Source: Clostridia bacterium (lineage in GTDB: Bacteria > Bacillota > Clostridia > Lachnospirales > Lachnospiraceae). Taken from it: 64,000 nt of DNA. The position numbers were made by a program, and so were the translations under genes. Location of the stretch: NCBI GenBank assembly GCA_910574255.1, contig CAJTAK010000002.1, forward strand, positions 1-64,000, read 5' to 3'. The notes under the pieces are model-generated. The model was not told the DNA's origin, did no database searches, and was given only the letters and a program-made list of their open reading frames with translations. Below are positions 7,154 to 52,897 of this stretch, one piece after another. Positions within the stretch are counted from its first letter, which is position 1. Each line of letters opens with the position of its first letter.

Positions 7154-7711
7154 TTACTTCTTAGAAGCCAGATAAGCTGCCTTCCCATCCTCGTAAAGGT
7201 TCTTCCCTTCACTGTCAATAATCACAACCAGAGGCATATCCTCCACATAGAGCTTCCGAAGCGCCTCCGCCCCCAGATCCTCATAGGCAATCAGCTCACA
7301 CTTCTTAATACACTTTGCCAGAAGCGCCCCCGCTCCGCCGATAGCTCCGAAGTAAACGCCGTGATACTTCTTCATGGCATCCACAACCTCCGGCAGTCTG
7401 GCTCCTTTGCCAATCATGCCTCTGGCACCAACCGACATCATGGTAGGTGCATAAGCATCCATCCGGCCGCTGGTGGTAGGCCCTGCGGAACCAATCACCT
7501 GTCCCGGCTTAGCCGGAGTAGGCCCTACATAGTAAATAGTAGCATCCGTTGGATCAAAGGGAAGCTCCTCGCCCCTTGCCAGGGCCTCACACATTCTTTT
7601 ATGTCCTGCATCTCTGGATGTATAAATCGTTCCGGTCAGATAAACACTGTCTCCGGCATGAAGTGTCTTTGCAACTTCCTCCGTAAGCGGCAATTGAATA
7701 TGTTTCTCCAT
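7154..7711 (-). CDS. fumB: Fumarate hydratase class I, beta subunit
   Basis: 185 residues matching the C-terminal domain of iron-sulfur hydro-lyases of the fumarase A/tartrate dehydratase type, with the characteristic GSAGPTTSGRMDAYAP and IGKG segments. It pairs with the alpha subunit, whose stop lies 1 nt before this start. The two-subunit enzyme reversibly hydrates fumarate to malate. With the reductase operon at 30-40 kb it likely runs malate to fumarate in succinate formation. The name fumB means beta subunit here, not the E. coli isozyme. Confidence 0.9.
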   Translation of the reverse strand: MEKHIQLPLTEEVAKTLHAGDSVYLTGTIYTSRDAGHKRMCEALARGEELPFDPTDATIYYVGPTPAKPGQVIGSAGPTTSGRMDAYAPTMMSVGARGMIGKGARLPEVVDAMKKYHGVYFGAIGGAGALLAKCIKKCELIAYEDLGAEALRKLYVEDMPLVVIIDSEGKNLYEDGKAAYLASKK

Positions 7712-7712: not shown

Positions 7713-8555
7713 CTAGATCACCTCCGTCTTATGGCGTGTCACATGGCAGTTGATATTCACTGCACAGGGCATACCAGCAATATGGGTAGGCAAAGTCTCA
7801 ATATTAAGAGCCAGTGCCGTTGTCTTTCCGCCAAAGCCCTGGGGTCCAATGCCAAGCTTATTAATCTTTTCCAGCATCTCCGCCTCCAGATCCGCATAAT
7901 AGGGGTCCGGGTTCCTCTCATCCGTGCTGCGCATGAGAGCTTTCTTCGCAAGCAATGCGCACTTATCAAAGGTACCGCCGATTCCCACGCCCACAACCAT
8001 AGGCGGACATGGATTGGGGCCGGCCGTCTCCACAGTCTCCAGAATGAAATCCTTGATTCCCTCAATTCCTGCGGAGGGCTTGAACATACGGATAGCGCTC
8101 ATATTTTCGCTTCCAAAGCCCTTAGGCCCAACTGTCACCTTAATCTGCTCTCCGGGAACAATCTCCGTATAGAGCATAGCCGGTGTATTGTCTCCCGTAT
8201 TTCCACGGCGCACCGGGTCTTTTACCACAGATTTCCGAAGATATCCCTTGTCATAGCCCCGGCGCACACCCTCGTCCACGGCCTCTCTTAAATCGCCGCC
8301 CACGATATGCACATCCTGTCCAATCTCCAGAAATACACAAGCCATTCCGGTATCCTGACAAATGGGAACATTCTCCTGTTCTGCAATCTCAAAGTTTGTA
8401 ATAATCTTATCCAGTACCCCCTGGGCAATCTCCCAGTCCTCGCATGCCCGGCAGCGCCGAATGGCACCCTGAACATCCTCGGGAAGATACTGATTTGCTT
8501 CAATACATAATTTCTCCACAACATCCGTAATCTGCTGTGCCTGAATCTCACGCAT
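7713..8555 (-). CDS. fumA: Fumarate hydratase class I, alpha subunit
   Basis: 280 residues carrying the [4Fe-4S]-binding hydro-lyase domain. The cluster cysteines are in VPICQDTGMACVF, GPNPCPPMVVG and in the C-terminal region. Start chosen at ATG 8553-8555 with AGGAGG at 8565-8570, 9 nt upstream; a TTG at 8561 is less likely. Oxygen-labile class I fumarases are typical of strict anaerobes. It follows a 37-codon ORF that may be cotranscribed. Confidence 0.92.
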   Translation of the reverse strand: MREIQAQQITDVVEKLCIEANQYLPEDVQGAIRRCRACEDWEIAQGVLDKIITNFEIAEQENVPICQDTGMACVFLEIGQDVHIVGGDLREAVDEGVRRGYDKGYLRKSVVKDPVRRGNTGDNTPAMLYTEIVPGEQIKVTVGPKGFGSENMSAIRMFKPSAGIEGIKDFILETVETAGPNPCPPMVVGVGIGGTFDKCALLAKKALMRSTDERNPDPYYADLEAEMLEKINKLGIGPQGFGGKTTALALNIETLPTHIAGMPCAVNINCHVTRHKTEVI

Positions 8556-8593
8556 GAGCAACCACCTCCTGAATTTAATATTTATAATGAAAT

Positions 8594-11021: not shown

Positions 11022-11023
11022 CC

Positions 11024-28686: not shown

Positions 28687-29850
28687 CTACAAAAAGATCC
28701 CAATAAACTGACTGGCAAGCACCACCATAACAAGGGCAATGGGATAAGTAGCCGCATAAGCCGACGCCACATCATCCGTCTCCGTCACACGAATCAGCGT
28801 CCCAAGAGCCGGCGTACTAGTCATCCCGCCACAGATAGACCCAAGGGTATTAAAAATACTAAGCCTCAGCACTTTCGCCGCAAACACATACCCAAGCAGC
28901 ATAGGAATCAGCGTCATCAGCGCCCCATAGAAGAACAAAAGCGCCCCCTGCTCCTTTAAGATCTCCACAAACCCCGAACCGGCCTGGGACCCTGCCCCAA
29001 GCAGAAACAGCGCAAGGCCAAACTCCCGAAGACACTCCAAAACATGCTTCTCCACCTTAACACTTAAGCGGCCAATATGCCCAAAATGCCCCAAAATCAG
29101 CCCGGCAATCAAAGGCCCGCCGGAAGTCCCAAGGGCAAACACCGCACCTCCGGGCAAAGGAATCTCAATCTTCGCCAGAATAATCCCAAAAGCAATCGCC
29201 AAAGAAAACGGGAAAAATCCCATACTATCCGCATAAAACAGCTCTTCCTTCTTCGTCTTATGATACTCCTCTTCCTCCACATTCGCCGCAGCCTCATACT
29301 TGGCACGCTCCTTTGCCATATCAACCTTCAAAAGCTTTGGCACAAGCTGAACAAAAAGAACCACCCCAATAACGCCGAAAGGATAAGCAATCCCATATCC
29401 AACGGAAGCCGCCTCAGACCCCGTAGCCTCCAGAGCCGCCGCAAGCCCCGGCGTACTGGTAAGAGCTCCGGTCATCATCCCAAGGCTGATATCCACCGGC
29501 ACCCCAAAAACCGTAATCACAAACACACAAGTCAGAGCTCCGGCAGCAATCACAATAATCCCCAGCAAAATATAAGACGTGGCATTCAGCTTAAAATTCC
29601 GGAAAAACTTCGGTCCCGCAATGAATCCAACCGAAGTCACAAAGCAAATCAGCCCCAAGTTCTGCACCAAAGAAGGAATCTCCACTCCTAAATGACCGAA
29701 GACCAGGGCCACCAGCAAAATACCGGCGGTCCCCAGCTCCAGTCCGCAAATCTTAATACTGCCAATCAGATAACCGATAACGGCAATAAGAAATACCATC
29801 ATCAGCGTATTCGAAAATATATTCTCCTGAAACCAAGTAACCAGTCCCAT
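28687..29850 (-). CDS. AAEx-family (aspartate:alanine exchanger-type) dicarboxylate/amino-acid transporter
   Basis: 387 residues from ATG 29848-29850 with AAGGGGAG upstream. Two repeated Asp-Al_Ex domains (~5-170 and ~215-385), each with ~5 helices; the conserved GALTSTPGLAAAL and GGMTSTPALGTL repeat motifs are present. The central TrkA_C domains are reduced to a charged ~40-residue loop. AspT exchanges aspartate for alanine and SucE exports succinate within this family. The position at the end of the fumarate-reductase operon favours succinate export or aspartate/succinate exchange. Confidence 0.88.
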   Translation of the reverse strand: MGLVTWFQENIFSNTLMMVFLIAVIGYLIGSIKICGLELGTAGILLVALVFGHLGVEIPSLVQNLGLICFVTSVGFIAGPKFFRNFKLNATSYILLGIIVIAAGALTCVFVITVFGVPVDISLGMMTGALTSTPGLAAALEATGSEAASVGYGIAYPFGVIGVVLFVQLVPKLLKVDMAKERAKYEAAANVEEEEYHKTKKEELFYADSMGFFPFSLAIAFGIILAKIEIPLPGGAVFALGTSGGPLIAGLILGHFGHIGRLSVKVEKHVLECLREFGLALFLLGAGSQAGSGFVEILKEQGALLFFYGALMTLIPMLLGYVFAAKVLRLSIFNTLGSICGGMTSTPALGTLIRVTETDDVASAYAATYPIALVMVVLASQFIGIFL

Positions 29851-29879
29851 TACACACTCCCCTTCCAATTATCTCAATA

Positions 29880-29932
29880 GACAGCAAGCCAGACGCCCAT
29901 GTCACTGCACGGACATCTGGCCCTTGTCTCAT
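29880..29932 (-). terminator. Intercistronic stem-loop
   Basis: AGACA/TGTCT, GCCAGA/TCTGGC and ATGTC/GACAT nest in the gap between frdA and the exchanger gene. No U-run follows, so it may tune rather than end transcription. Confidence 0.4.
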
Positions 29933-29963
29933 AAGTAAAGTCTCACATCACGCCGCCCATATT

Positions 29964-31568
29964 TTATTTCGGCATACCAAAAGTATACTTAGGCAGAAGC
30001 AGCGGAGAAACCTCTCCCGTATGCAGATCCGCTTTCTCAAGCTCTCCTGCGTAAGCCTGAATGTGATCAAGGTTCATAGTTCCAAGAGTTACCTCTTTAC
30101 ACTTCGCCGCCGCAGCCTTACCCGCATTTCGGCCAAACACAATAATATCCAGCAGAGAATTACCCATGAGACGATTTCTTCCATGAATACCTCCCACAGC
30201 CTCACCTGCCACCAGAAGATTGGGAATCGCCTTGGTAAAGCCCTCACCGCCGATCTCCAGGCCGCCGTTCTGATAATGAAGCGTCGGATAAATGAGAATC
30301 GGCTGCTTTCTCATATCAATGCCATAATTCAAATACATCCTGAGCATAGCCGGAATCCGCTTCTCAATGGTTCCCTCGCCGTGAATCATCTCAATCATGG
30401 GCGTATCCAGCCAAATACCAAATCCGGTAGGTGTGGGCACACCCTTACCTCTCTCCTTGCACTCCCGAATAATAGAAGCCGCAGACACATCACGAGTTTC
30501 CAGAGGATGCATAAACGCCTCACCCTCCGCATTGATCAGCATAGCTCCCAGAGAACGCACTTTCTCCGTTACCAGAGCACCGAAGATCTGTGCCGGATAA
30601 GCAACGCCCGTAGGATGATACTGAATGGTATCCTGGTACAGCAAAGGAGCTCCTGCACGATAACCCATCACCAGACCATCTGCAGTTGCACCATAGTGGT
30701 TGGATGTGGGGAAATTCTGATAATGAAGCCGTCCCGCACCGCCGGTAGCAATAATCACCGTTTTCGCCTTTGCCACCTTGTACTCGCCCGTCTCCATATT
30801 TTGAAGCACGGCACCGGCCACCTGTCCCCTGTCATCCTTAATCAGCTCTACCGCCGCCGTAAAGTCCGCAATGGGAATCTGACGGTTCCACACCTCGTCA
30901 CGAAGCACTCGCATAATCTCCGCACCGGAATAATCCTTGCAGGCATGCATACGCTTTCTGGAGGTTCCGCCGCCGTGGGTGGTTACCATTCTGCCGTCCT
31001 TATCCTTGTCAAACATCACGCCCAGCTCGTTGAGCCATTTAATCGCATCGGGAGCCTCCATAACCAGACGGCGTAAGAGCTCCGGCCTTGCGGCAAAATG
31101 TCCGCCTCCAAAGGCATCCAGATAATGTCGCTCCGGAGAATCGTTCTCCTTATCTGCCGCCTGGATTCCGCCCTCGGCCATCATGGTATTGGCATCACCG
31201 ATACGAAGCTTTGTCACCATCATGACATTGGCTCCTGCCTCATGAGCCTCAATGGCTGCGGAGGAACCTGCGCCGCCGCCGCCGATAACCAGAACATCCA
31301 CGTCATAAGCCGCATGATTCAAGTCAATGGGCACATCCTTGATCCGGCTGTTGGAGTGTAACAGAGTTCCCAATTCAAAGGGCACTTTCTCACCCTTGTT
31401 GGGTCCTACTTTTAACTCCTGAAAGCCCTCCTGGCGATAATCAGGATGAAATTTGCGGAGAAGCTCATCTTTTTCCTCGGCCGTCATTCTTCTGGGCTCC
31501 ATGCCGATTCGCCCGGCTCTGGTAGCCTCTACCTTTTTAATGGATTCCAACATTTCTGCTGTAAACAT
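29964..31568 (-). CDS. frdA: Soluble fumarate reductase, flavoprotein subunit (TfrA/FrdA-like)
   Basis: 534 residues from ATG 31566-31568 with AGGAGG upstream. FAD loop GGGGAGSSAAIEAHEAG (~96-112). The usual covalent-flavin histidine motif (S/R-H-T) is IGDANTMMAEGG here, so FAD is probably non-covalent as in thiol:fumarate reductase and L-aspartate oxidase. Catalytic-domain landmarks include GGGTSRKRMHACKDYSG, QYHPTGVAYP and NRLMGNSLLDIIVFGR. It reduces fumarate to succinate in the cytosol; no membrane anchor subunits are encoded nearby. 13 nt follow frdB. Confidence 0.9.
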   Translation of the reverse strand: MFTAEMLESIKKVEATRAGRIGMEPRRMTAEEKDELLRKFHPDYRQEGFQELKVGPNKGEKVPFELGTLLHSNSRIKDVPIDLNHAAYDVDVLVIGGGGAGSSAAIEAHEAGANVMMVTKLRIGDANTMMAEGGIQAADKENDSPERHYLDAFGGGHFAARPELLRRLVMEAPDAIKWLNELGVMFDKDKDGRMVTTHGGGTSRKRMHACKDYSGAEIMRVLRDEVWNRQIPIADFTAAVELIKDDRGQVAGAVLQNMETGEYKVAKAKTVIIATGGAGRLHYQNFPTSNHYGATADGLVMGYRAGAPLLYQDTIQYHPTGVAYPAQIFGALVTEKVRSLGAMLINAEGEAFMHPLETRDVSAASIIRECKERGKGVPTPTGFGIWLDTPMIEMIHGEGTIEKRIPAMLRMYLNYGIDMRKQPILIYPTLHYQNGGLEIGGEGFTKAIPNLLVAGEAVGGIHGRNRLMGNSLLDIIVFGRNAGKAAAAKCKEVTLGTMNLDHIQAYAGELEKADLHTGEVSPLLLPKYTFGMPK

Positions 31569-31581
31569 ATGTGCTCCCCTC

Positions 31582-32256
31582 CTATTTCTCAATATCCCTG
31601 TTGTTGTAGAGTTCTTTCATTTCCTCAATGGGCTTTTGCATAACCTGCTCAATAAGGCTGTCAAACTCACCGCTGTTAATAGCCTCCACACGCTCGGCCA
31701 GGTGCTCGGACTTGGGAGCAATGTATTTTCCGGTAAGACGTCTTGCAAGCACGCCCACCATGGGGTGAGAAATACCTGCCGGACAGCGTGAGGTACAGAT
31801 GCCGCAGCCGATACAGTCAAAAGATTCCTCCGCACACTTCTCAAAATCGCCCCTCTGTGCGTATGCAATATACTGCATAACACTTAAGCTCTGGGGACAG
31901 CCCTTGGTACAGGCATTACAGCCGATACAGCTGTAGATCTCCGGATAAAGCTCCATCATAATCTTCTGCTTTGCCTCTACCTCATTGATATCATAATTTC
32001 TCTTATCCGTGGGGAAGAACGGCAGGGTTGCCACATACATTCCCTCCTGTACCTGGGTCTGGCATGCCAGACAGGTTTTCAGCTCGTTATTTCCCTTGAT
32101 TCTGTAAATGGTGGCACAGGCACCGCAGAATCCATGACGACAGCCGCAGCCCCGAACTAATTTATAGCCTGCATATTCCATTGCGGTCATAATGGTTAAT
32201 TCGGCCGGTACGGAATACTGTTTTCCAAAAAAATATACGTTTACCATTTCCTGCAT
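31582..32256 (-). CDS. frdB: Fumarate reductase iron-sulfur subunit
   Basis: 224 residues. A [2Fe-2S] domain (CGCRHGFCGACATI with LKTCLACQ) is followed by two CxxCxxCxxxCP motifs (CIGCNACTKGCP, CIGCGICTSRCP). Unlike methanogen TfrB it lacks a cysteine-rich CCG domain; HdrB elsewhere in the operon carries that function. It would wire an electron donor to FrdA. Start ATG 32256; the ribosome site (AGGA) is weak, and the preceding 182-nt gap is highly structured. Confidence 0.9.
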   Translation of the reverse strand: MQEMVNVYFFGKQYSVPAELTIMTAMEYAGYKLVRGCGCRHGFCGACATIYRIKGNNELKTCLACQTQVQEGMYVATLPFFPTDKRNYDINEVEAKQKIMMELYPEIYSCIGCNACTKGCPQSLSVMQYIAYAQRGDFEKCAEESFDCIGCGICTSRCPAGISHPMVGVLARRLTGKYIAPKSEHLAERVEAINSGEFDSLIEQVMQKPIEEMKELYNNRDIEK

Positions 32257-32340
32257 TTTATTTTTACCAGTCCTTTCTGTTTATTATCTAAATGCTGCCT
32301 TGTAGAGCACACCTCAATTTCGCTTCCGCTCCATTTCGGT

Positions 32341-32422
32341 TGGGGCATTCGCCCCATACAGACAAAAGCTAAATCATTGCCTTACATGCAAGCATGACGG
32401 CCATGCTTTACCTTTTGTCTGT
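32341..32422 (-). promoter_or_regulatory. Structured intercistronic region flxA-frdB
   Basis: TGGGGC/GCCCCA hairpin at 32341-32356; ACAGACAAAAG (32358-32368) pairs with CTTTTGTCTGT (32412-32422), enclosing GCATG (32392-32396)/CATGC (32402-32406). Possible mRNA processing or stability element that sets the frdAB to flx ratio. Confidence 0.5.
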
Positions 32423-32438
32423 GCGCTGCTCATTGCTG

Positions 32439-33293
32439 TCAATACTCCGGCGGCAGTTCATCTATCTCATCAAACCTGAATACCGGCCCATCCTTGCACA
32501 CATATTTAGATCCAATATTGCATCGTCCGCATTTTCCGATTCCGCACTTCATGCGAAGCTCCAGTGTGGTGTAAATCTGCTCCTTGGTAAAGCCCATCTC
32601 CGTAAGCCCCGCCAGTACGAATTTGATCATAATGGGCGGTCCGCAGACAAGAACTTTTTTGTCGGTGGTAAATCCAATCTCCTTTAAGTAGGAGGGAACA
32701 AAGCCCACATGGCCGTCCCAGCCCTCCTGCTCCCGGTCGATAGTCAGATATACATCCACGCCATCAGTCTTGCACCAAACCTGCTGAATCTCCTCTAACT
32801 GCACCAGATCGTCTGCAGAACGGGAGCCGTAGAGAATCTCCACCGTCCCGTAATTCTCCCGGTTATCCAGTACGTAGTTGATCACGGAGCGAAGAGGTGC
32901 AAGGCCGATTCCTCCGGCGATAAACAGAAGATTTTCTCCCTTAAGAGCCGTCTCCACCGGAAATGCATTTCCGTAGGGTCCTCTTACGGTAATCTCATCC
33001 CCCGGATTCATCCCGTGAAGCACATCCGTAAGACTTCCGCACCGCTTGATGGAAAATTCCTGAAATTCCTTGTTGGTTGGGGAGGAAGTAATGGAAAACA
33101 TAGCCTCTCCCACGCCAGGTACGGACACCATGGCACACTGGCCCGGCATATGCTCGAAAAGCTTCTTCCCGTCCCGTCCTACTACACGGAATGTCTTAAC
33201 ATCCGGGGTTTCGGTACGGATATCTGTAATAACGCCAATCATTGGAATCAGCATGTCACTTTTATGATTTCCTCCGCAGGTACACTCGCCCAT
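32439..33293 (-). CDS. flxA: FlxA-like NAD(P)H/FAD oxidoreductase
   Basis: 284 residues of the ferredoxin-reductase fold: FAD-binding barrel ~10-105, NAD-binding domain with IAGGIGLAPLRSVINY and VLVCGPPIMIKF. A C-terminal [2Fe-2S]-type motif CGIGKCGRCNIGSKYVC is typical of dihydroorotate-dehydrogenase electron-transfer and sulfhydrogenase gamma subunits. In FlxABCD-HdrABC it is the NADH entry point. It overlaps flxB by 1 nt. Confidence 0.9.
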   Translation of the reverse strand: MGECTCGGNHKSDMLIPMIGVITDIRTETPDVKTFRVVGRDGKKLFEHMPGQCAMVSVPGVGEAMFSITSSPTNKEFQEFSIKRCGSLTDVLHGMNPGDEITVRGPYGNAFPVETALKGENLLFIAGGIGLAPLRSVINYVLDNRENYGTVEILYGSRSADDLVQLEEIQQVWCKTDGVDVYLTIDREQEGWDGHVGFVPSYLKEIGFTTDKKVLVCGPPIMIKFVLAGLTEMGFTKEQIYTTLELRMKCGIGKCGRCNIGSKYVCKDGPVFRFDEIDELPPEY

Positions 33294-34315
33294 TACGCTT
33301 CACCTCCCAGTTTCTTAATCACCTTTACAATATTTAAAGAAGCCGGACATTTGCTCACACAGCGGCCGCAGCCCACGCAGGAGAACATGCCGTCGTTATT
33401 GGCCGGATAGTACACAAGCTTGTGCATAAAACGCTGGCGGAACCGCTGCATCTGACTGGTACGCATATTGCCGTGGGCCATCATGGTAAAGTCAGAGTAC
33501 ATGCAGGAATCCCAGCAGCGGTAACGCTGCACGCCGCTTCCCGTATTAAAGTCCTTGATATCGTAGCACTGACAGGTGGGGCACACAAAGGTACAGGTGC
33601 CGCAGGCCAGACAGGGCTGATACATTTCCTCCCACAGGGGAGAGTCAAACAGCTCCATGGTCTTTTCCGGGGTAAACCGGGAAAGGTCAAGATGGGAATA
33701 GGGAAGCTTTTCGATAATGGCCCGAATCTGCTTCTTCTCTTCCTCCACAGCCCCATCGTCCCCATCCGTAAATAGTGTCTTTACGCTATCGGTCAGAGCC
33801 TCGCCCTTTTCCGTCAAAGCTTTCCAGTAGAGCTCCTCACCTGCAAACCAGGTCGCCACATCCGCTGCCGGATTGGCCGCATCAATGCCGAACACCTTAC
33901 AAAAACAGGTCTCCTCCGGCTCATGGCAGGCAATGGCTACCACGGTGCCGTGCTCCCGGCGTGCCGCATAAAAGCTGTCCACCGGGTCATTTAAAAATAC
34001 ATTGTCCAGAACCTTTAAGCCCTGCACGTCACAGGCCCGCATGCCAAATACCACAAAAGGCTCATCCGTAAGCTTCGCCGGATCGATGGAAAGCTTTCCG
34101 TCCTCATTTTTACAGCTATATAAAGTCTCGCTCTGAGGGAAGAAACAGTCCTTGCCGGATTTCACGGTTTTCAGGGTATCCAGATCCACCTGCACCTCTT
34201 CGGTCCAGAGACCATAGTTGGTCTGATCGGCTTTCCGAATAGGAAGAAACAAATCCTGTGCCCCGGCCATTGCCGCAAATAATTCCGGCAGACGGTCTTT
34301 CTTTATCTGATACAT
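33293..34315 (-). CDS. flxB: FlxB-like 4Fe-4S dicluster protein
   Basis: 340 residues. An N-terminal domain like hydrogenase/sulfite-reductase A subunits (VVFGMRACDVQGLKVLDNVF) precedes two ferredoxin motifs, CLACGTCTFVCPTC and CVGCGRCVSKCP. It passes electrons between FlxA and the Hdr module. The start directly abuts the flxC stop. The B/C assignment follows gene order of the known flxABCD cluster. Confidence 0.82.
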   Translation of the reverse strand: MYQIKKDRLPELFAAMAGAQDLFLPIRKADQTNYGLWTEEVQVDLDTLKTVKSGKDCFFPQSETLYSCKNEDGKLSIDPAKLTDEPFVVFGMRACDVQGLKVLDNVFLNDPVDSFYAARREHGTVVAIACHEPEETCFCKVFGIDAANPAADVATWFAGEELYWKALTEKGEALTDSVKTLFTDGDDGAVEEEKKQIRAIIEKLPYSHLDLSRFTPEKTMELFDSPLWEEMYQPCLACGTCTFVCPTCQCYDIKDFNTGSGVQRYRCWDSCMYSDFTMMAHGNMRTSQMQRFRQRFMHKLVYYPANNDGMFSCVGCGRCVSKCPASLNIVKVIKKLGGEA

Positions 34316-35296
34316 TTAGTGCTTCCCTCCTCTCTCGGTGACAACACTCGGCTCCACGTCCTCGAACGTATAATCAGTAAGAGGTGCACGGCTGTCCGTA
34401 TCCTCCCCTGCCTGATAGGGTCCGTAGAACTCGTTGATATCCTTGATAAACTTCCGATTCAGGAGGTGAAGCGGAATTCCCTGGGGACATACCCGGCTGC
34501 ACTCGCCGCAGTCCGTGCACCGGCCCGCCACATGGAACGCCCGGATCACATGGAACATCTGCTCCTCAAAGGTATCCACATTGGCTTTCTGGGCCGAGTC
34601 AAACTTATTGCTGTCAAAGACACATTTTAAGCAGCTGCAGGCCGGACAGGCGTTCCGGCAGGCATTGCAGCGGATACACTTGGAAAGCTCATTCTGCCAG
34701 AATGCAAAACGCTCCTTTGGCGTCATGGCTTCCAGCTTCTCCACCATCTCAAAACGGTTGCCTTTGGGTCCGGCTTCCTCCCCCTCCTGGGCACCAATCA
34801 GTTCGTCGTACACCTGATGGGTCTTACCCTTGCAGACGGTACAGCGTTCCAACAGTGCGTCGTCAAAGGGGAATTCCTTTTCCCCGTAAATGGTCTGAAT
34901 CTTCAACATATCTCCATCCTGGGAAATGGACTCAATTCCCTTGATGCCTGCATTTTTAATCTTATCAATATCTAAAGTTCCCTTGCAGCCCACGCCGATG
35001 ATGTAGGTCTTTTCCCGGTTTACCCGGTGCTCCTTAATGAGCTGATTGAAGCTGTAGGTATCACAGGGCTTCAAGAATACCAGGGTATTTCCCTCCATTT
35101 TCCCTGCCTGGATCATATATTTGCTTAAGTTAGCTCCGCAGAAGCCGTCGTACACGAAGTCCGCTAATTCCTCCGGGCTGTTAAAGTAGGCAGGCTCCGG
35201 ATTGTAGCCCAGATCTCCCTGCCTCCATCCAAGAACACGTACCACGGTTCCGTCGGTAAGGAGTTCCTTTGCTCTCTCTACTAATCTTTCTTGCAT
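34316..35296 (-). CDS. flxC: FlxC-like 4Fe-4S protein
   Basis: 326 residues. An N-terminal FrhB/FdhB-like part (FLKPCDTYSFNQLIKEH, IIGVGCKGTLDIDK, CTVCKGKTHQVYDELIG) is followed by CIRCNACRNACPAC and CTDCGECSRVCP. It overlaps flxD by 16 nt, so translation is coupled. Confidence 0.82.
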   Translation of the reverse strand: MQERLVERAKELLTDGTVVRVLGWRQGDLGYNPEPAYFNSPEELADFVYDGFCGANLSKYMIQAGKMEGNTLVFLKPCDTYSFNQLIKEHRVNREKTYIIGVGCKGTLDIDKIKNAGIKGIESISQDGDMLKIQTIYGEKEFPFDDALLERCTVCKGKTHQVYDELIGAQEGEEAGPKGNRFEMVEKLEAMTPKERFAFWQNELSKCIRCNACRNACPACSCLKCVFDSNKFDSAQKANVDTFEEQMFHVIRAFHVAGRCTDCGECSRVCPQGIPLHLLNRKFIKDINEFYGPYQAGEDTDSRAPLTDYTFEDVEPSVVTERGGKH

Positions 35297-35727
35297 CGCA
35301 AATCCCCCAATCTCACATTTTCGCCCAGGGAATGAATCTTGGCTACAAACTCATTCATGGTGGTGGAGAACTTCACGCCCTCTGCTGCGGACACCCATTC
35401 CACACGGGTCCGGCCGTTTTCCACGCCAAGGTAATCCAGCATGGAGAACAGCAGGGTCATTCTTCTTCTCGCATAATAGTTGCCGGTTGTATAGTGGCAG
35501 TCTCCCGGATGGCAGCCGCACAGGATCACGCCGTCGGCTCCACGCTGAAACGCCCTTAAAATAAACATGGGATTTACACGGCAGGAGCAGGGCACACGGA
35601 TGATCTTCACGTCCGCCGGATAAGCAAGCCTGCTGCTGCCGGCCAGATCGGCTCCCGCATAACTGCACCAGTTACAGCAGAAAGCTACGATCTTAGGCCG
35701 AAATTCTTGTCTTTTTTCTACTTGCAT
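35281..35727 (-). CDS. flxD: FlxD/MvhD-like iron-sulfur subunit
   Basis: 148 residues from ATG 35725-35727 with GGAGGTGG upstream. The hydrogenase iron-sulfur subunit (MvhD) signature is complete: FCCNWCSYAGADLAG, RVPCSCRVNP and VILCGCHPGDCHY. MvhD binds a [2Fe-2S] centre that hands electrons to HdrA. It overlaps the hdrA stop by 10 nt. Confidence 0.92.
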   Translation of the reverse strand: MQVEKRQEFRPKIVAFCCNWCSYAGADLAGSSRLAYPADVKIIRVPCSCRVNPMFILRAFQRGADGVILCGCHPGDCHYTTGNYYARRRMTLLFSMLDYLGVENGRTRVEWVSAAEGVKFSTTMNEFVAKIHSLGENVRLGDLRCKKD

Positions 35728-37703
35728 ATCGCATCCACCTCCGCAAGAATTTGTCGATTCGAGAAGCCCTGTAGATCCATAGCTCCCGACGGGCAGGCAA
35801 CGGTACATGCACCGCAGCCCTGGCAGAGTGCACTGTTGACATTGGCCACTCTTCTCGTCTCACGGATGCCGTGATCATTAACCTCTCTCTCCTCATAGGA
35901 AATGGCTCCGTAGGGGCATACCTTTTCACAGGAGGAGCAGCCGTTACAGAGAAGCTCGTCGGACTTGGCCACACAGGGGTTGGTTACCAGGTGATCCTTG
36001 GCCAGAAGCCCTACTACCTTTACGGCGGCAGCACCGGCCTGGGCCACGGTCTCCGGAATGTCTTTCGGTCCCTGGCAGACACCGGAGAGGAAAATCCCCG
36101 CCGTGGGAGATTCCACCGGACGCAGCTTTGCGTGGGACTCGGTTAAGAAGTTGTTGGTATCAATGCTTGCGGTGAGCATGGTGGCAATTTTGCGCACATC
36201 CGGGTTGGGCTCAATGGCCGTAGCCAGAACTACCATATCCGTCTCCATGAGAATCCGCTTATTGTCGATTAAGTCAACACCCTGAACCAGAAGCTTGTCG
36301 CCTTTCTCCGCAACCTTCCCTACCTGGCCCTTAATGTAATTTACACCGTATTCCTCTACGGCTCTCCGGTAGAACTCGTCAAAGTTCTTACCAGGGGTAC
36401 GAACGTCTATGTAGAATACCGTAACCTCCACATCCGGATACTTGTCACGGATGAGCATGGCGTGCTTTGCCGTGTACATACAGCAGATCTTGGAGCAATA
36501 GCTCTTTCCTCTCTTGTCCGCACAACGGGAGCCTACGCACTGGATAAATACCATGGATTTGGGCGGCTTATGATCAGACATACGCTCTAAGTGTCCCTTA
36601 GTTGGGCCTGCCGCATTCATAATACGCTCCAGTTCCAGGGAGGTAATCACATCGGGACTGGTACTGTAGGAATACTCATCAAACTTGTCAAGCTTGATGG
36701 TATCAAAGCCTGTGGCAACCACAATGGCTCCGTAATTCTGGGTTACAATCTCATCTTTCTGCTCATAGTCAATGGCTCCTGCCTGACACACCTTGGAGCA
36801 GACACCGCATTTTCCAGTCTTAAACTTGATGCAGTTCTCACGATCAATCACCGGTACATTGGGGATTGCCTGGGCAAACGGGGTGTAGATGGCACTTCTG
36901 GTATTAAGCCCTCTGTTGAACTCGTTGGGTGTCTTTTTAGAGGGACATTTCTCCTGGCAGACTCCGCAGCCGGTACACTTGCTCATATCAACGCTTCTGG
37001 CCTTTTTGCGGATATCCACCTGGAAGTCTCCCACAAAGCCGGATACCTTTTCCACCTCGCTGTAGGTGTAAATGGTGATCTTCTCATGGGCCGCAGCTTC
37101 CACCATCTTCGGTGTCAGAATACAGGCCGAGCAGTCCAGTGTGGGGAATGTCTTGTCAAGCTGGGACATTCTTCCGCCAATACTTGGGGTCTTCTCTACG
37201 ATGTCTACCTCGTAGCCTGCGTCTGCGATATCCAGAGCCGTCTGAATGCCGGCGATTCCGCCGCCGATGACTAAGGCTCTCTTTACCACTCTGCTGGTGC
37301 CTGACTGTAAGGGGGCGTTTAAGGTTACCTTTGCGATTGCCGCCCTTGCCAGAATCACCGCTTTTTCTGTTGCTTCTTCTATATCTTTATGAATCCAGGA
37401 ACAATGCTCACGAATATTGGCGATCTCTACCATGTAGGGATTGATGCCTGCACGCTCTGCCGCCTGACGGAATGTATTTTCATGCATTCTCGGGGAGCAG
37501 GAGCAGACTACAATGCCTGTCAGGTTTTTCTCTTTGATTGCCTCACGGATCTTGAGCTGTCCGGCTTCGGAGCACATATACTGGTAGTCCTCTGCGTGGA
37601 CAACCCCCGGCTCTTTTGCCGCCGCTTCCACCACCCGGGCAACGTCAACGGTTGCCGCAATGTTGGTGCCGCAATGGCAGACAAATACTCCTATTCTTTG
37701 CAC
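35718..37703 (-). CDS. hdrA: Heterodisulfide reductase-like flavoprotein HdrA
   Basis: 661 residues from GTG 37701-37703 with GGAGG 8 nt upstream. The N-terminal cysteine domain VFVCHCGTN, the FAD Rossmann loop GGGIAGIQTAL (~147), internal CTGCGVCQEKCP, and C-terminal CNGCSSCEKVCP and CQGCGACTVACP ferredoxin clusters are all present. HdrA holds the bifurcating FAD in methanogen and clostridial Hdr complexes. All cysteine sets look intact, so a bifurcating role is plausible but not shown. Confidence 0.93.
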   Translation of the reverse strand: MQRIGVFVCHCGTNIAATVDVARVVEAAAKEPGVVHAEDYQYMCSEAGQLKIREAIKEKNLTGIVVCSCSPRMHENTFRQAAERAGINPYMVEIANIREHCSWIHKDIEEATEKAVILARAAIAKVTLNAPLQSGTSRVVKRALVIGGGIAGIQTALDIADAGYEVDIVEKTPSIGGRMSQLDKTFPTLDCSACILTPKMVEAAAHEKITIYTYSEVEKVSGFVGDFQVDIRKKARSVDMSKCTGCGVCQEKCPSKKTPNEFNRGLNTRSAIYTPFAQAIPNVPVIDRENCIKFKTGKCGVCSKVCQAGAIDYEQKDEIVTQNYGAIVVATGFDTIKLDKFDEYSYSTSPDVITSLELERIMNAAGPTKGHLERMSDHKPPKSMVFIQCVGSRCADKRGKSYCSKICCMYTAKHAMLIRDKYPDVEVTVFYIDVRTPGKNFDEFYRRAVEEYGVNYIKGQVGKVAEKGDKLLVQGVDLIDNKRILMETDMVVLATAIEPNPDVRKIATMLTASIDTNNFLTESHAKLRPVESPTAGIFLSGVCQGPKDIPETVAQAGAAAVKVVGLLAKDHLVTNPCVAKSDELLCNGCSSCEKVCPYGAISYEEREVNDHGIRETRRVANVNSALCQGCGACTVACPSGAMDLQGFSNRQILAEVDAICK

Positions 37704-37753
37704 GTGATTCACCTCCAACCTTTCATATTTGTTCAGTACCCTCACAAATATGA

Positions 37754-37842
37754 GCAAAAATCCATTTAAAATCCCTGCGGGATGGGATTTTTGCCTGCTT
37801 GCGATAGGTCCTCATACGGACTTTGCAGTATAGGCAAAGTCC
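37754..37842 (-). promoter_or_regulatory. Structured intercistronic region hdrC-hdrA
   Basis: GCAAAAATCC near 37754 pairs with GGATTTTTGC ending at 37794, with ATCCC/GGGAT inside, and GGACTTTGC (37818-37826) pairs with GCAAAGTCC (37834-37842). It occupies nearly the whole gap and may be a processing or partial-termination site. Confidence 0.5.
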
Positions 37843-37865
37843 TGTCCTAAAGTTATCTGTATCCA

Positions 37866-38258
37866 CTATTTGCTGTACTTCCGAAATGCACTTGCAAGGA
37901 GCTGCTGTGGAAGCTCTTCGTCGAGAAGCTCCGGCACCTCACCCGGTGTCAGGTAATTGCCGCCTCTCTCTCGAATCACCATAAGGCGTACCGCCTCAAT
38001 CAGCTTCGCCGGCTTCACGTCTCTGGGACAACGCTCCACGCAGGCAAAGCAGGACAGGCATTTCCAGATGCTCTTTGACTCCAGAAGTGCTTTTACGTCT
38101 GCGTTCTGCACGTAGGAGACAAACTGATGGGGACGGATGTCCATTTCCTCATAGGCCGGGCAGGAGGCGGAGCATTTTCCGCATTTCATACATTTCTTTG
38201 TGTCAACACCGCTGATCTCTTTTAAGAGTTCAGCCTGTTCTTGTTCTGTTCTATGCAT
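37866..38258 (-). CDS. hdrC: Heterodisulfide reductase-like subunit HdrC
   Basis: 130 residues from ATG 38256-38258 with GGGGGAGG upstream. Two cluster motifs CMKCGKCSASCP and CLSCFACVERCP; these [4Fe-4S] centres connect HdrA to HdrB. 13 nt after hdrB. Confidence 0.9.
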   Translation of the reverse strand: MHRTEQEQAELLKEISGVDTKKCMKCGKCSASCPAYEEMDIRPHQFVSYVQNADVKALLESKSIWKCLSCFACVERCPRDVKPAKLIEAVRLMVIRERGGNYLTPGEVPELLDEELPQQLLASAFRKYSK

Positions 38259-38271
38259 GTCTTCCTCCCCC

Positions 38272-39060
38272 TTATTCCTTAATGAGACCCAAGGCTTCCG
38301 CAAGAAGCTCCGTAATATAGTGAACGGGTACTTTCTTTGCACCGCCACTGTTCTTCAAGTTGTAAAGGCACAGGGGACAGGCGGTAATGAGTTCCTCTGC
38401 TCCCTTGTCTACAGCGGATTCCATTACATGATCAACCAGACTGCCGGCCAGTGCTTTCTCTTTCAGGGATATGTAACCGCCGCAACACTCGTTTCGGTAG
38501 GGGTAAACCACCGGCTCCGCACCCAGGGCCCGAATGAAGTCTTCTATAATGGTGGGATTTTCCGGATCATCAAATGCCATGACGCCGCTGGGGCGAAGCA
38601 GCATACATCCGTAGTAAGCACCAATCTTTCTGCCCGTCAGGGGACTCGCCACCTTTTCCTTTAATGTATCAAAGCCCACATGGTCTCTTAAGACCTCAAG
38701 GAAATGAAGTACTTTCGTCTCTCCCTCATAGGGGGTGTCAAGCTTTAAATAGTTGTTGGCTCTGGTCCGGATATCCTCCACATTCTGCATATCATCATTC
38801 ACACGCTTGATGACGTGATGACAGGCGGAACACAGGGTTACCAGATCCCGGCCCTTTTCTTTTGCGTCGTTTAACGCACGCACCGCAGACAGCTTTGTGG
38901 CAATCTCGTCGGAAGCCTGGGGATAGACGGCACCGCAGCACTGCCACTCCTCAATCTCCTCCAGAGTAAAGCCAAGTGCCTCTGCTGACATTCTGGCATA
39001 TCGATCCAGGTCCTGGGCCTTGTTTTTCAAGGTACAGCCCGGATAATAGCTGTATACCAT
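38272..39060 (-). CDS. hdrB: Heterodisulfide reductase-like catalytic subunit HdrB
   Basis: 262 residues with two CCG-type cysteine motifs: YYPGCTL/QCCGAVYP/LCSACHH and YYGCML/ECCGGYI/CPLC. In HdrB each set holds a noncubane [4Fe-4S] cluster that cleaves heterodisulfides; in sulfate reducers the partner is DsrC. No dsrC-like gene is present here, so the acceptor is unknown. AAGGAGG precedes the ATG. Confidence 0.92.
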   Translation of the reverse strand: MVYSYYPGCTLKNKAQDLDRYARMSAEALGFTLEEIEEWQCCGAVYPQASDEIATKLSAVRALNDAKEKGRDLVTLCSACHHVIKRVNDDMQNVEDIRTRANNYLKLDTPYEGETKVLHFLEVLRDHVGFDTLKEKVASPLTGRKIGAYYGCMLLRPSGVMAFDDPENPTIIEDFIRALGAEPVVYPYRNECCGGYISLKEKALAGSLVDHVMESAVDKGAEELITACPLCLYNLKNSGGAKKVPVHYITELLAEALGLIKE

Positions 39061-39184
39061 TTGGCAAACCTCCTTCTTTTTTGATATACCGCAGCAGTTC
39101 AGGCAAAGGAAACTGCCGCAATGTGTTTCAAAGTAAATCTTTTAAAGTGAAATACAGTGAAATTTCAAATATACTTTACATGCT

Positions 39185-39240
39185 ACGATTCACAGCTTCC
39201 CACCAGCAGACTGTCTGCTGATTTTTGACTGTGAATCGTG
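39185..39240. repeat. Inverted repeat between the dehydrogenase gene and hdrB
   Basis: ACGATTCACAG (39185-39195) pairs with CTGTGAATCGT (39229-39239), with CAGCAG/CTGCTG inside. No U-run on either strand. A second small stem (CAGCAGTT/AACTGCCG) lies at 39090-39119 next to the hdrB ribosome site. No clear promoter was found in the rest of 39061-39387. Confidence 0.5.
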
Positions 39241-39387
39241 ATTTTCCGCCTATAAAATCATTACCATCTGCTCCGACCGGCATGAATCTCAAAAAACAAC
39301 CGGCATGTAAGCAGCAGTTGAAAATCCACTTTTAAAATTGTAACATATTTCTCTTAAGAAGTCATTTTCAATATGGTCTGATTTTTT

Positions 39388-40344
39388 CTAATTTTTGCTG
39401 CAGACATCCTTGATAAATGCTTTCAAAGTGTCTGCGGAGTGAACCATCCGCTTCTCTTCTTCTTCTGTCATGCTGATTTTCAGAACCTTGCCGATACCGT
39501 CACTGTTTACCACGCAGGGCAGGCTGATGCAGGAATCTGCCATCTCGCCATAATCCTCTCCCAATACATGAGCCACAGGAAGTACGGTGTTCTGATCCTT
39601 AATGATGGACTCTACAATACGTAAGGTTGACATAGCGATTCCGTCAAAGGTAGCGCCCTTTAAGGAAATAACATCTGCGCCGCCGGAGCGTGCCTTCTGT
39701 GCAATCTCCTCCTTTTCCTTTGCCCGCACCTCAGGGTCCTGAGAAAGGAAGTGATCCACCGGCTCCCCTGCCACGTTCACGCCGCTCCAGATAGGTACCT
39801 GTGCATCTCCATGCTCACCCAAAATATAGCCCTGGATATCACGAATGTCCACATGACAGCGCTCACTGATAAGATAACGGAAACGGGCCGTATCCAGAGA
39901 GGTACCCGTACCAATTACACGGCCGGTGGGCAGTCCGGTTTCTTTCTGAATCAAGTAAGTGTTTACATCCACCGGGTTCGCAACTACGATAATCAGCGGA
40001 TTCTTGGCATACTCCATAATATTTCTGGCAATGCTCTTGGCTACGCCGGTATTGACCTTTGCCAGATCAAGACGTGTCTGACCGGGTTTTCTTGGAACGC
40101 CTGCCGTCACGATAATAGCCTTTGCGTCGGCACATTCCTCATAGCCGCCCTGACGCACACGTACCTGGCTGTAGAATGCGGTACCGTGGGAAATGTCCAG
40201 AGCCGCACCCTTGGCTCGGTCCTCATCTACGTCAATGATGACAATCTCGCTTACCTGGGTTTTCAGCATCAAGGTGTAACAAATCGTTTCTCCTACCTTA
40301 CCTGCGCCAACTACAACGATCTTGTTTGCTGTTTCCTGACTCAT
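39388..40344 (-). CDS. mdh: L-lactate/malate dehydrogenase family enzyme, malate-type specificity residue
   Basis: 318 residues. NAD loop GAGKVGE, catalytic H178 in GEHGDAQVP, D151 and R154 in SLDTARFR. The overall sequence is LDH-like, but the substrate-loop residue equivalent to LDH Gln102 is Arg85 (AGVPRKPGQTR). Arg there selects oxaloacetate/malate in engineered LDH and natural MDH. Together with fumarase and fumarate reductase this supports malate dehydrogenase. A Rex-type operator overlaps its promoter. Routine annotation would call it L-lactate dehydrogenase. Confidence 0.8.
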   Translation of the reverse strand: MSQETANKIVVVGAGKVGETICYTLMLKTQVSEIVIIDVDEDRAKGAALDISHGTAFYSQVRVRQGGYEECADAKAIIVTAGVPRKPGQTRLDLAKVNTGVAKSIARNIMEYAKNPLIIVVANPVDVNTYLIQKETGLPTGRVIGTGTSLDTARFRYLISERCHVDIRDIQGYILGEHGDAQVPIWSGVNVAGEPVDHFLSQDPEVRAKEKEEIAQKARSGGADVISLKGATFDGIAMSTLRIVESIIKDQNTVLPVAHVLGEDYGEMADSCISLPCVVNSDGIGKVLKISMTEEEEKRMVHSADTLKAFIKDVCSKN

Positions 40345-40528
40345 ACTTTTACCTCTCTCTTTCCTTTGATTCTGTTACGGTCCGCCCCTCAATGTCATGC
40401 ATGATCTTCTGACCCTGGTATCATGTCATTTGTTAAACGCAAAAAGCTTACAAAGGCTTTGGCGGGAACAGTAACGAATTACTTCCACGTTTCGGGTCTG
40501 ATTGATAATTTTATATCAATTGGGTTCA

Positions 40529-40557
40529 TTATAGCACGTTGTTAAACAATTAACAAC
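40529..40557 (-). promoter_or_regulatory. mdh promoter overlapped by a Rex-type operator
   Basis: On the minus strand: -35 TTGTTA (40552-40557), 17 nt, -10 TATAAT (40529-40534). TTGTTAATTGTTTAACAA (40540-40557) is a perfect inverted repeat of the TTGTTAAnnnnTTAACAA type known for Rex, which leaves DNA when NADH/NAD+ is high. A partial second site, TTGTTAAATTCTTAAC, is at 40716-40731. Confidence 0.8.
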
Positions 40558-40931
40558 CCCTGGAGCGGATTATTTTGAAGTTTTTTTAAAACCAAAATAC
40601 CACATGATTCCAAGGGAATCATCTTTTCTTTTTATTTATTTTCGATGTTTTTCTAATTTTTTCTATTTTTCGAGTTTTTTAACCGTTTTTGAAAATGGAT
40701 GGGATTCGGGATGGATTGTTAAATTCTTAACTCTTCGGGTGAAAATGTGACCTTTTATTGTGAATCCATATCACGAACTTAAGCTTAAAAATTTAGTAAC
40801 GGCTCCGAACAAGAACCACTGCCCTGACCAGTGCGTCCCTCGTGCCGGGCTGATAATCCTCCTGAGCGTAAATTCATGATATTGAACATGAATTTCTATG
40901 ATAGAAAAATGGGGGATTCTGATGTAGAAAA

Positions 40932-41050: not shown

Positions 41051-42196
41051 TCAGGCCTGTTGTCCTTCCAATTCCCGAATCCGGCGCAGGGCCTCTTCAA
41101 GCTGTTCTGATTTCTGACGTTCACGCTCTTCCAGTCTGTCAGCCCGGCTTTTCTGTTGATTCAATTCCTCTCTCTTCTTCTCCAGCTCTTCTCTCTTCTG
41201 TTCCAGTTCTTCTTTCTTCTGTTCCAATTCTTCTTTTGTATGCTCCACTTCTTCTCTTTTCTGCTCCAGCTCATCCTTCGTATACTCTATTTCTTCTCTT
41301 TTCTGCTCCAGCTCCTCCTGCATCTCATCAATCATTAACTGCACCGTATTCCGGTCCAGTTCCCGAAGCTCTTTTGAAAAAAGTCCCATGATTTCCTCCA
41401 TATTCCGGCACATCTCATATGCCTCTTCATACATGGGCTTAAATTGCGGATAGGCTTTGATTAGCTTCTCAATCTCCCCTGGTGCGTCCGCACTGAAAAA
41501 CATAAGCCATGCATCCAGTTTCCCTGTAATACCTTTATTTTGCTGTGTTTCCTTAAAAATGTCAATAGGGATGAATACATATTTCTGCAGAAGTTCTATC
41601 TCGATTCCCGTGTCCGACTTCTGCTCAAAGCGGTGTATGTAGGTATGGGGATATTTGTGAAATTCCTGTTGACTTGTTTCAAACAGGATGATAGTATAAA
41701 CGGATTTTATATCACGGTAACTGAATTTTTTGCGCTTCTTACTCCGCACACGTTTGTACTGGCGTAGCAAAAGATCCGCTGAATAGCAGGCGCTGCGCTC
41801 GCCGGGAAATTTGTAGCCTATCTTCTGTACCTCCACATTCGCCAGGCTTTTATCCTTAAGTTCCACCACAATGTCCGTAATCAGCAGAGAGCTTTCGTCC
41901 GCAATGCGGGTAGAATCGTTGGGAAGCACCGTATGAATCTTCACCTGGGTTCTCAGAATCAGCGATAAGAATTCATTCAGCCGCTCCGGTGCGCTTTCCG
42001 GGTTCATAACCTCCTTAAAAAATGCGTCGTATAGCATTCTCGGCCCCTTTGCCCCCGTACAAATATCCAGAAATTCCTCCTGCTGCTCTTTTGTCCAGGA
42101 AGCAAATAATTCGGAAAGCCTCTTTTTTCCATGTATTTCCGTCAGCACCTCCTTCCGTTCCCGAATCATGGGAAAATATTGTTTTAAATCTTCCAT
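41051..42196 (-). CDS. Rpn-family nuclease/transposase-like protein with long coiled coil
   Basis: 381 residues from ATG 42194-42196, AAAGGAG upstream. Residues ~15-300 are the Rpn/PD-(D/E)XK-like core (LYDAFFKEVMNPESAPERLN, ITDIVVELKDKSLANVEVQK). The last ~110 residues are a near-perfect heptad coil of EELEQKREE repeats. The frame stays open upstream through a 51-bp tandem array to 42442, which could add MSKEHGQIKETPYGYPC repeats, but the ribosome site favours 42196. Confidence 0.82.
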   Translation of the reverse strand: MEDLKQYFPMIRERKEVLTEIHGKKRLSELFASWTKEQQEEFLDICTGAKGPRMLYDAFFKEVMNPESAPERLNEFLSLILRTQVKIHTVLPNDSTRIADESSLLITDIVVELKDKSLANVEVQKIGYKFPGERSACYSADLLLRQYKRVRSKKRKKFSYRDIKSVYTIILFETSQQEFHKYPHTYIHRFEQKSDTGIEIELLQKYVFIPIDIFKETQQNKGITGKLDAWLMFFSADAPGEIEKLIKAYPQFKPMYEEAYEMCRNMEEIMGLFSKELRELDRNTVQLMIDEMQEELEQKREEIEYTKDELEQKREEVEHTKEELEQKKEELEQKREELEKKREELNQQKSRADRLEERERQKSEQLEEALRRIRELEGQQA

Positions 42197-42210
42197 AAAC
42201 CTGCTCCTTT

Positions 42211-52834: not shown

Positions 52835-52857
52835 CTTCCATCACCAAACCCCAGCCA

Positions 52858-52877: not shown

Positions 52878-52897
52878 CTACCCATGCTGCTGTTATT

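Follow-up and report, generated by a model that had tools for sequence, protein, structure and literature searches.

A Soluble Flx-Hdr-Fumarate Reductase Operon of Clostridia as a Candidate NADH-Driven and Possibly Electron-Bifurcating Route to Succinate

Several known systems resemble the operon described here, which combines genes for FlxABCD, for the heterodisulfide reductase proteins HdrABC and for a soluble fumarate reductase (FrdAB), and which lies in a 64,000-nucleotide stretch of DNA (hereafter the window) from a Clostridia bacterium of the family Lachnospiraceae (positions 1 to 64,000 of contig CAJTAK010000002.1, assembly GCA_910574255.1). The FlxABCD-HdrABC of Desulfovibrio, which was reportedly described by Ramos in 2015, has seven subunits of the same name; the operon here also includes FrdAB, whereas DsrC is regarded as the acceptor in sulfate reducers. 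Koendjbiharie and van Kranenburg are said to have treated the system of Pseudoclostridium thermosuccinogenes in a 2019 preprint. According to a paper on this organism, its "succinate operon" starts with fumarate hydratase, continues with seven genes for Flx-Hdr and two for fumarate reductase and ends with a hypothetical protein that is a possible succinate transporter; expression of the operon changed jointly and rose about 4-fold at low CO2 (PMC7282089). The same paper, citing the preprint, proposed a link to ferredoxin for this complex, which was argued from H2 inhibition. Judged by the published gene list, the two operons share the same modules in the same listed order, whereas here a malate dehydrogenase (MDH) gene of the lactate dehydrogenase (LDH) clade comes first, the fumarase genes lie apart and a Rex-type operator is visible.

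Similarly, putative thiol:fumarate reductase (Tfr) genes stand beside Flx-Hdr genes in tubeworm symbionts and Thioflavicoccus, where tfrAB is interspersed with flxABCD-hdrABC in clusters for the reductive tricarboxylic acid cycle and the authors suggested a complex (PMC6315080); those organisms are Gammaproteobacteria whose cycle is autotrophic and accompanied by korABCD, whereas the operon here appears to serve a fermentative succinate branch. Methanogen TfrAB also has FrdB-like and HdrB-like parts, and no NCBIfam profile is closer to FrdA than that of TfrA; however, TfrB fuses both parts, which are separate here, HdrA, HdrC and FlxABCD are added, and the scores are far under the cut-offs. 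In acetogens, the MetFV-HdrABC-MvhD complex likewise places an Hdr/MvhD module on a dedicated reductase, the methylenetetrahydrofolate reductase (MTHFR) (PMC8578096); the terminal reductase differs from that of the present operon, and MTHFR-linked Flx-Hdr loci also occur in the class-wide genome sample described below (L166 and L173).

In Blautia luti, succinate, malate dehydrogenase and viologen-linked fumarate reductase were measured and frdAB was highly transcribed (PMC12773636, published in 2026), and the main text of that paper contains no word beginning with "hdr" or "heterodisulfide". Since the genome of B. luti MSK.16.34 (G541) has another FrdA-like gene (32% identity), which adjoins a gene of SdhB type (Fer2_3), as well as a weak Sdh_cyt match below the cut-off, the activity in extracts cannot be assigned to this operon alone and was not accepted as proof for the enzyme. 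A literature search by title found no further paper on this operon type, and the phrase "bifurcating fumarate reductase" was not met among the papers listed; the spread of the operon may already stand in the 2019 preprint, Ramos 2015, Meyer 2014 or Miura 2008. Thus, this kind of system has been proposed in print before, and what is added here is its spread, its Rex sites, its neighbours and the case of B. luti. A preliminary description of the window had proposed that FrdAB, or a thiol cycle via HdrB, may be the high-potential acceptor of Flx-Hdr, an interpretation that is supported as far as Flx-Hdr feeding FrdAB is concerned but is not new, because the equivalent "succinate operon" was already reported (PMC7282089).

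The evidence presented below suggests that Flx-Hdr very probably supplies FrdAB with electrons from NADH. The whole scheme, with ferredoxin reduction included, appears moderately probable, and its most specific form, in which the soluble FlxABCD-HdrABC-FrdAB of nine subunits bifurcates electrons from NADH to fumarate and ferredoxin, and HdrB and FrdB together take the part of a divided TfrB, is a shade less so while still being favoured.

Co-occurrence and arrangement of the operon

The operon is read on the minus strand from 40344 to 28687 in the order mdh, hdrB, hdrC, hdrA, flxD, flxC, flxB, flxA, frdB, frdA, exch. A more extensive investigation of its distribution was based on two samples of genomes. 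In the family sample (250 genomes), FrdA was found in 23 genomes, FlxD in 27 and both in 23 (Fisher p 9e-29), and in the class sample (391 genomes) the corresponding numbers were 54, 59 and 53 (Fisher p 1.7e-57), p-values that overstate the association because the sampled genomes are related. The class counts use one FlxD per genome, second and weaker FlpD matches in G668, G582, G609, G696 and G614 being excluded, and G735 was entered only with the FrdA fragment that shares a contig with FlxD. The sole genome of the class sample with FrdA and without FlxD (G615) has a completeness of 75%. Adjacency of frdBA to the flx and hdr genes, which the preliminary description had wished to see checked in other genomes, is conserved: in 48 of the 53 class genomes that have both, flxD precedes frdA on its strand at a distance of 3552-3755 bp, which excludes an arrangement limited to this genome. 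Among the remaining five, flxD and frdA are on separate contigs in four, and the fifth is reordered (G804, locus L162: fumA-alpha, fumA-beta, frdB, frdA, hdrB, hdrC, hdrA, flxD, flxC, flxB, flxA).

In addition, 113 frdA loci were compared, which came from two genome fetches and one scan (the scan-derived loci being the best 80 of 560 confirmed) and include some contigs twice (five pairs have identical upstream regions); the loci of one further fetch are not among the 113. The nine-gene core lies on one strand in all 84 fetched loci that are not cut by a contig edge; in the other 29, the first core gene is no more than 163 bp from the upstream edge of the sequence. A gene was scored as present if a protein more than 45% identical to the reference was encoded anywhere in the fetched stretch, so that hdrA in two pieces (L041 and L088) was counted as present; presence and strand were tested by script, and gene order was judged by eye. 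Within the fetched stretches of the 84 intact loci, mdh is present in 60, a fumarase of either class in 71 (fumC in 10) and the exchanger in 49. A merely local accident as the reason for the position of frdBA is ruled out by the co-occurrence in both samples together with the 84 intact loci. The earlier view of FrdAB as the dedicated acceptor of Flx-Hdr is thus supported by co-occurrence and near-constant spacing. Independent support for a fumarate branch that disposes of NADH comes from the neighbouring mdh and fumarase genes and from the Rex-type operator.

FlxD occurs without FrdA in ten sampled genomes, of which four belong to the family sample and the other six to the class sample. In one of the former (G178), Frd-type genes are present up to the contig end, and the other three (G036, G065 and G234) have a divergent Flx-Hdr of similar shared layout, with hdrA 55-56% identical to that of the window. 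Upstream of this divergent module, a molybdopterin oxidoreductase with an AhtL-like first domain, a Fer4_11 subunit and a polyprenyl synthetase are encoded in G036 (L058), and downstream of it UbiA is found in G234 (L061) and UbiE in G065 (L059). It is possible that this set represents a menaquinone-linked or hydroxytransferase-type system. In the class sample, one exception is cut at a contig end (G577), whereas Flx-Hdr adjoins MTHFR, an MTHFR C-terminal-type protein and formate-tetrahydrofolate ligase in G609 (L173) and MTHFR in G696 (L166); G582 and G614 have a similar layout as judged by length and position only, and in G568 (L163, about 4258-11517) HdrA-FlxD stands beside an [FeFe] hydrogenase and glycine cleavage H protein. 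Every uncut exception whose neighbours were typed therefore has another redox enzyme beside the module, from which we infer that each Flx-Hdr module has its own dedicated partner reductase.

A different kind of rearrangement was observed in G028 (L038, 2899-14245), where identity to the window is 95-97% for frdB, frdA and exch but 72-88% for the hdr and flx genes, and mdh belongs to the ordinary clade; the 3' half of this operon looks as if it had been exchanged through recombination or transfer.

With regard to the window itself, all genes that the preliminary description had listed, from hdrB to the exchanger, were found in the described order on one strand. Its interval of 28687 to 40344 also proved right, reaching 40344 because mdh is included, although mdh had been left unlisted. 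The junctions had been called mostly overlapping or short, which is true of most of them: hdrB and hdrC are separated by 7 bp, flxC and flxB by 0 and frdB and frdA by 13, and overlaps are found between hdrA and flxD (10), flxD and flxC (16) and flxB and flxA (1). However, there are four larger gaps, between mdh and hdrB (327 bp), hdrC and hdrA (156), flxA and frdB (182) and frdA and the exchanger gene (113). Two of these gaps contain promoter-like sites and a third a hairpin of 16 pairs with a weak T tail (29886-29923, minus strand, in the frdA-exch gap), which may reduce read-through into the exchanger gene. Judged from this layout, one transcript for the whole operon is likely. No known RNA family was matched in an Rfam search of the window.

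Subunits, neighbouring enzymes and Rex-type regulation

FrdA (29964..31568, minus strand, 534 aa) has H318, T334, E335, R338, R359, H431 and R466 at the places of what we take to be the His/Thr/Glu/Arg/Arg/His/Arg residues of the fumarate site in E. coli K-12 FrdA, and all seven are invariant in alignments of 14 and 26 sequences. The covalent-FAD (flavin adenine dinucleotide) His of the E. coli enzyme is replaced by Asn127, which is equally invariant in both alignments; loss of covalent FAD favours fumarate reduction over succinate oxidation. FrdA has no match to Succ_DH_flav_C in Pfam, and its conserved N-terminal extension of about 85 aa lacks a Pfam match; a search for structural relatives of this extension gave none that was convincing (best E 1.4). 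FrdB (31582..32256, minus strand, 224 aa) has a [2Fe-2S] domain, two complete CxxCxxCxxxC [4Fe-4S] motifs and a conserved C-terminal tail. Its C148-C151-C154-C158 motif is complete in 11 and 31 sequences, whereas E. coli FrdB has Val at the place of C151; because this second [4Fe-4S] motif is complete, a [3Fe-4S] cluster, which is the cluster next to the quinone in membrane enzymes, is not expected. Therefore, despite sharing the seven fumarate-site residues with the quinol:fumarate reductase FrdABCD of E. coli, the proteins here lack both the covalent-FAD His and the [3Fe-4S] motif, and a quinone-linked Frd that has lost its anchor is unlikely given the Asn127 and C151 changes.

The preliminary description had seen no membrane anchor for FrdAB. 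In the operon there is indeed no anchor gene, and Sdh_cyt (PF01127) has zero matches in the whole genome, in which the families of E. coli FrdC and FrdD were not searched. The genome (5.04 Mb, 78 contigs, 96% complete, 5% contamination) has a single FlpD match, a single FrdA-like match at E <= 1e-10, an ATP-type phosphoenolpyruvate (PEP) carboxykinase and RnfC above the cut-off. Taken together, these sequence features support a quinone-free, soluble, NADH-driven fumarate reductase.

Among the Hdr proteins, HdrA (35718..37709, minus strand, 663 aa) is an FAD and Fe-S protein that shares 49% of 642 aligned positions with the HdrA of 5odc and keeps 28 of the 31 Cys of 5odc_A, its CxxC motifs, including the C-terminal ferredoxin-type ones, being complete. 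HdrB (38272..39060, minus strand, 262 aa), which is a protein separate from the CCG-less FrdB, has two CCG domains with both motifs complete and all ten cluster-ligand Cys conserved, and HdrC (37866..38264, minus strand, 132 aa) is a 4Fe-4S dicluster protein. FlxD (35281..35727, minus strand, 148 aa) belongs to the MvhD/FlpD family and matches MvhD of the 5odc complex. FlxC (34316..35296, minus strand, 326 aa) is a 4Fe-4S dicluster protein that resembles F420-formate dehydrogenase beta subunits of Hdr complexes, FlxB (33293..34315, minus strand, 340 aa) is a sulfhydrogenase-beta/AsrA-like dicluster protein, and FlxA (32439..33293, minus strand, 284 aa) is an NAD(P)H/FAD/[2Fe-2S] diaphorase subunit. 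One cluster thus holds the genes for all seven subunits of FlxABCD-HdrABC.

The first gene, mdh (39388..40344, minus strand, 318 aa), encodes an NAD-dependent dehydrogenase that scores above two L-lactate dehydrogenase cut-offs (356.2 vs 339; 344.2 vs 303.55) and also above one malate dehydrogenase subfamily cut-off (295.2 vs 283). The exchange of Gln for Arg at position 102 (LDH numbering) switches specificity from lactate to malate. The window protein has Arg at this position, in contrast to the Gln of 3wsv and 4lmr, which are named L-lactate dehydrogenase; the best solved relative, 1y6j, bears the same name yet has Arg. Arg was found in all 62 operon homologues examined, i.e., 14 of 14 LDH-clade copies (three contigs being counted twice) and 48 of 48 MDH-clade copies. 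In the source genus, the LDH-clade gene occupies the place of the ordinary MDH-clade gene (35-39% identical) of those other genera in which mdh was found before hdrB. The first gene is therefore predicted to be a malate dehydrogenase by function and of the LDH clade by descent; a fermentative LDH is less likely in view of the Arg and of the ordinary-clade MDHs at this place elsewhere, although two LDH cut-offs are passed.

The genes for class I fumarase, which lie close to frdA or exch in many relatives, are located about 20 kb from the operon in the window (alpha subunit, 7713..8561; beta subunit, 7154..7711, assigned by similarity to L043:1402-1956, which was typed as Fumerase_C; both minus strand). 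Among the products of the intervening stretch (8562-28686) are a chromate transporter and an AAA_14/DUF4143 protein; the exchanger and fumarase genes adjoin in a same-genus locus (L073/L081), and the distance between them varies among close relatives. The mdh and fumarase neighbours point to a route from oxaloacetate to succinate. The exchanger gene, exch (28687..29850, minus strand, 387 aa), which is near frdA in many relatives, encodes an AspT/YidE-family protein with two Asp-Al_Ex stretches (250.8 bits) that is under the cut-off for aspartate-alanine antiporters (170.8 vs 546.95). The succinate exporter SucE of C. glutamicum is a member of the AAEx family (PMC7419537), and the exchanger here is a candidate succinate exporter.

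Upstream of mdh, the best-scoring promoter-like site on the minus strand (40528..40556) consists of TTGTTA, a 17-nt spacer and TATAAT (10 of 12 positions, with TG before the second hexamer) and lies about 180 bp from the mdh ATG; such sites are frequent, with 22 in the region against 13.7 expected. Its -35 hexamer and part of the spacer are spanned by a Rex-type operator (40539..40556), a perfect 18-bp palindrome, TTGTTAANNNNTTAACAA, which is matched perfectly once in the window and in none of 100 window shuffles. Window sites with up to three mismatches were rejected as evidence (9 vs 4.95 expected, a number reached by 9 of 100 shuffles), and only the perfect site was used because the former are near chance. 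A second Rex-like palindrome with two mismatches is present at 40716..40733, and its like is also found upstream of mdh in the same-genus loci L074-L077. The TTGTTAA form used here is the clostridial variant of the Rex operator. The general Rex consensus, TTGTGAANNNNTTCACAA (PMC6391272), differs from it at 2 of 14 fixed positions.

When 74 unique upstream regions from relatives were examined, such a site was present with up to two mismatches in 42, with up to one in 20 and without any in 6. By contrast, 20 shuffle rounds gave averages of 0.85 and 0 for two mismatches and one, respectively, and among 254 control regions, taken from upstream of other genes, only 3 (two mismatches) and 1 (one mismatch) contain a site. 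One-mismatch sites are found in B. luti (L147) and B. schinkii (L146). For this count, five of the 84 loci with less than 200 bp upstream were dropped (one of which, L121, has a site) and the remaining 79 were reduced to 74 by deduplication; close same-genus relatives were kept, and the control regions were not deduplicated. A Rex-type site fits an NADH-disposing operon because Rex is an NADH-responsive repressor, and the operon is probably switched on when NADH accumulates.

Proposed electron path and its alternatives

In the preferred scheme, Rex would derepress the operon at high NADH, malate dehydrogenase and fumarase would supply fumarate, and the operon product would end a fermentation branch from PEP carboxykinase via malate and fumarate to succinate, which the exchanger would remove. 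NADH would deliver a hydride to FlxA, from which FlxB/FlxC and FlxD would relay the electrons to the HdrA FAD, where the pair would be split. One electron would travel via HdrC and HdrB to FrdB and FrdA, where fumarate is reduced at +33 mV, and the second would reach ferredoxin via the ferredoxin domains of HdrA; two turns would correspond to 2 NADH + fumarate + 2 Fd(ox) -> 2 NAD+ + succinate + 2 Fd(red), and Rnf could then convert reduced ferredoxin (Fd) into an ion gradient. The path HdrA-HdrC-HdrB-FrdB is one that we infer from the anatomy of the subunits, HdrB and FrdB together resembling a split TfrB. With published E0' values (NADH -320 mV, fumarate +33 mV, ferredoxin -400 to -500 mV), electron transfer from NADH to fumarate releases about 68 kJ per mol, whereas transfer from NADH to ferredoxin costs 15 to 35 kJ per electron pair, so that bifurcation is energetically possible with about 33 to 53 kJ to spare.

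Several observations weigh against this scheme or parts of it. No sequence feature examined separates a bifurcating from a non-bifurcating complex, and bifurcation should not be assumed, because the purified MetFV-HdrABC-MvhD complex of Moorella reduced no ferredoxin (Mock 2014, as reported in PMC8578096). Rnf is not enriched in genomes with Frd: in the family sample, divided by eye, RnfC is over the cut-off in 20 of 23 Frd-bearing genomes and 194 of 227 others, three Frd-bearing genomes having weak RnfC matches only, which rules out Rnf enrichment as support for bifurcation. In P. thermosuccinogenes, the rise in expression was not significant for all subunits and RNF was down about 2-fold (PMC7282089). 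A Rex-like site is missing in 32 of the 74 upstream regions, and HdrB retains both noncubane cluster sites, which is also compatible with disulfide chemistry. In addition, all Hdr, Flx, FrdA and FrdB proteins (the comparison covered all of these except FlxD) score below the curated cut-off of the nearest NCBIfam model, e.g., 790.6 vs 1100 for HdrA against HdrA2; as these cut-offs are unreached, the names were assigned from Pfam domains, relatives of solved structure, cluster motifs and gene neighbours.

The most serious alternative keeps the same electron path and dispenses with bifurcation, the complex being a plain soluble NADH:fumarate oxidoreductase that passes both electrons of NADH to fumarate. 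The Moorella result favours it, as does one energy model for B. luti, which assumes an NADH-dependent fumarate reductase (PMC12773636); however, the close similarity of HdrA to that of 5odc with its C-terminal ferredoxin-type motifs kept, the drop of about 0.35 V that leaves ample energy for ferredoxin, and the consideration that a simple route from NADH to fumarate would seem not to need the HdrA/FlxD module make it unlikely, though by no means negligible. Disulfide chemistry offers another explanation, in which HdrABC would use its HdrB clusters to reduce a small disulfide, and the resulting dithiol would donate to FrdAB, as a two-step version of the methanogen thiol:fumarate reductase. Such a cycle appears improbable: the ten conserved cluster Cys of HdrB, the weak match of its C-terminal CCG part to the TfrB profile (38.5 bits) and the status of TfrA as the best NCBIfam profile for FrdA are in its favour, but FrdA is far under the TfrA cut-off (330 vs 718 bits), FrdB, having no CCG domain, lacks the HdrB-like part of TfrB, and none of the operon genes resembles a thiol-making enzyme.

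It is also conceivable that the operon encodes separate, co-regulated enzymes that are kept together for NADH disposal, with Flx-Hdr using another acceptor and FrdAB being fed by ferredoxin or flavodoxin. Joint regulation could be accounted for by the Rex-type sites, and the ten sampled genomes in which FlxD lacks this FrdA, for instance beside the molybdopterin enzyme of L058, show that the module exists without it. Nevertheless, FlxD accompanies FrdA in 53 of 54 class genomes with near-constant spacing, the set survives rearrangement in G804, close Flx-Hdr relatives without Frd were found in the sampled genomes only at contig ends (L060 and L167), and the remaining modules that lack Frd have diverged (hdrA identity of 55-56% in L058, L059 and L061, and lower in the class sample), so that this explanation seems the least probable of all, slightly below the thiol cycle.

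Genomic surroundings and significance

Elsewhere in the window, a PD-(D/E)XK transposase-family protein (PF12784), whose N-terminus carries a repeated unit of 17 residues and whose C-terminus is Glu/Lys-rich, is encoded at 41051-42442 (minus strand). The region 51887-56364 (minus strand) contains a peptide-type ABC transporter permease and binding protein together with an AstE/AspA-type protein (54633-55562), which is adjoined by a methyltransferase (55612-56364).

If the bifurcating scheme is true, succinate formation would be an energy-conserving step in many gut Clostridia that current models overlook, and the role of the Hdr module in these fermenters would be explained. Many gut Clostridia would then possess a Rex-switched fumarate "respiration" that works without a quinone, a cytochrome or a membrane anchor, and ferredoxin-derived energy would add to succinate formation, for example in Blautia luti, where it has so far been uncounted. 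Strains suited to testing these possibilities include B. luti, B. schinkii, B. glucerasea, Mordavella massiliensis and Porcincola intestinalis.

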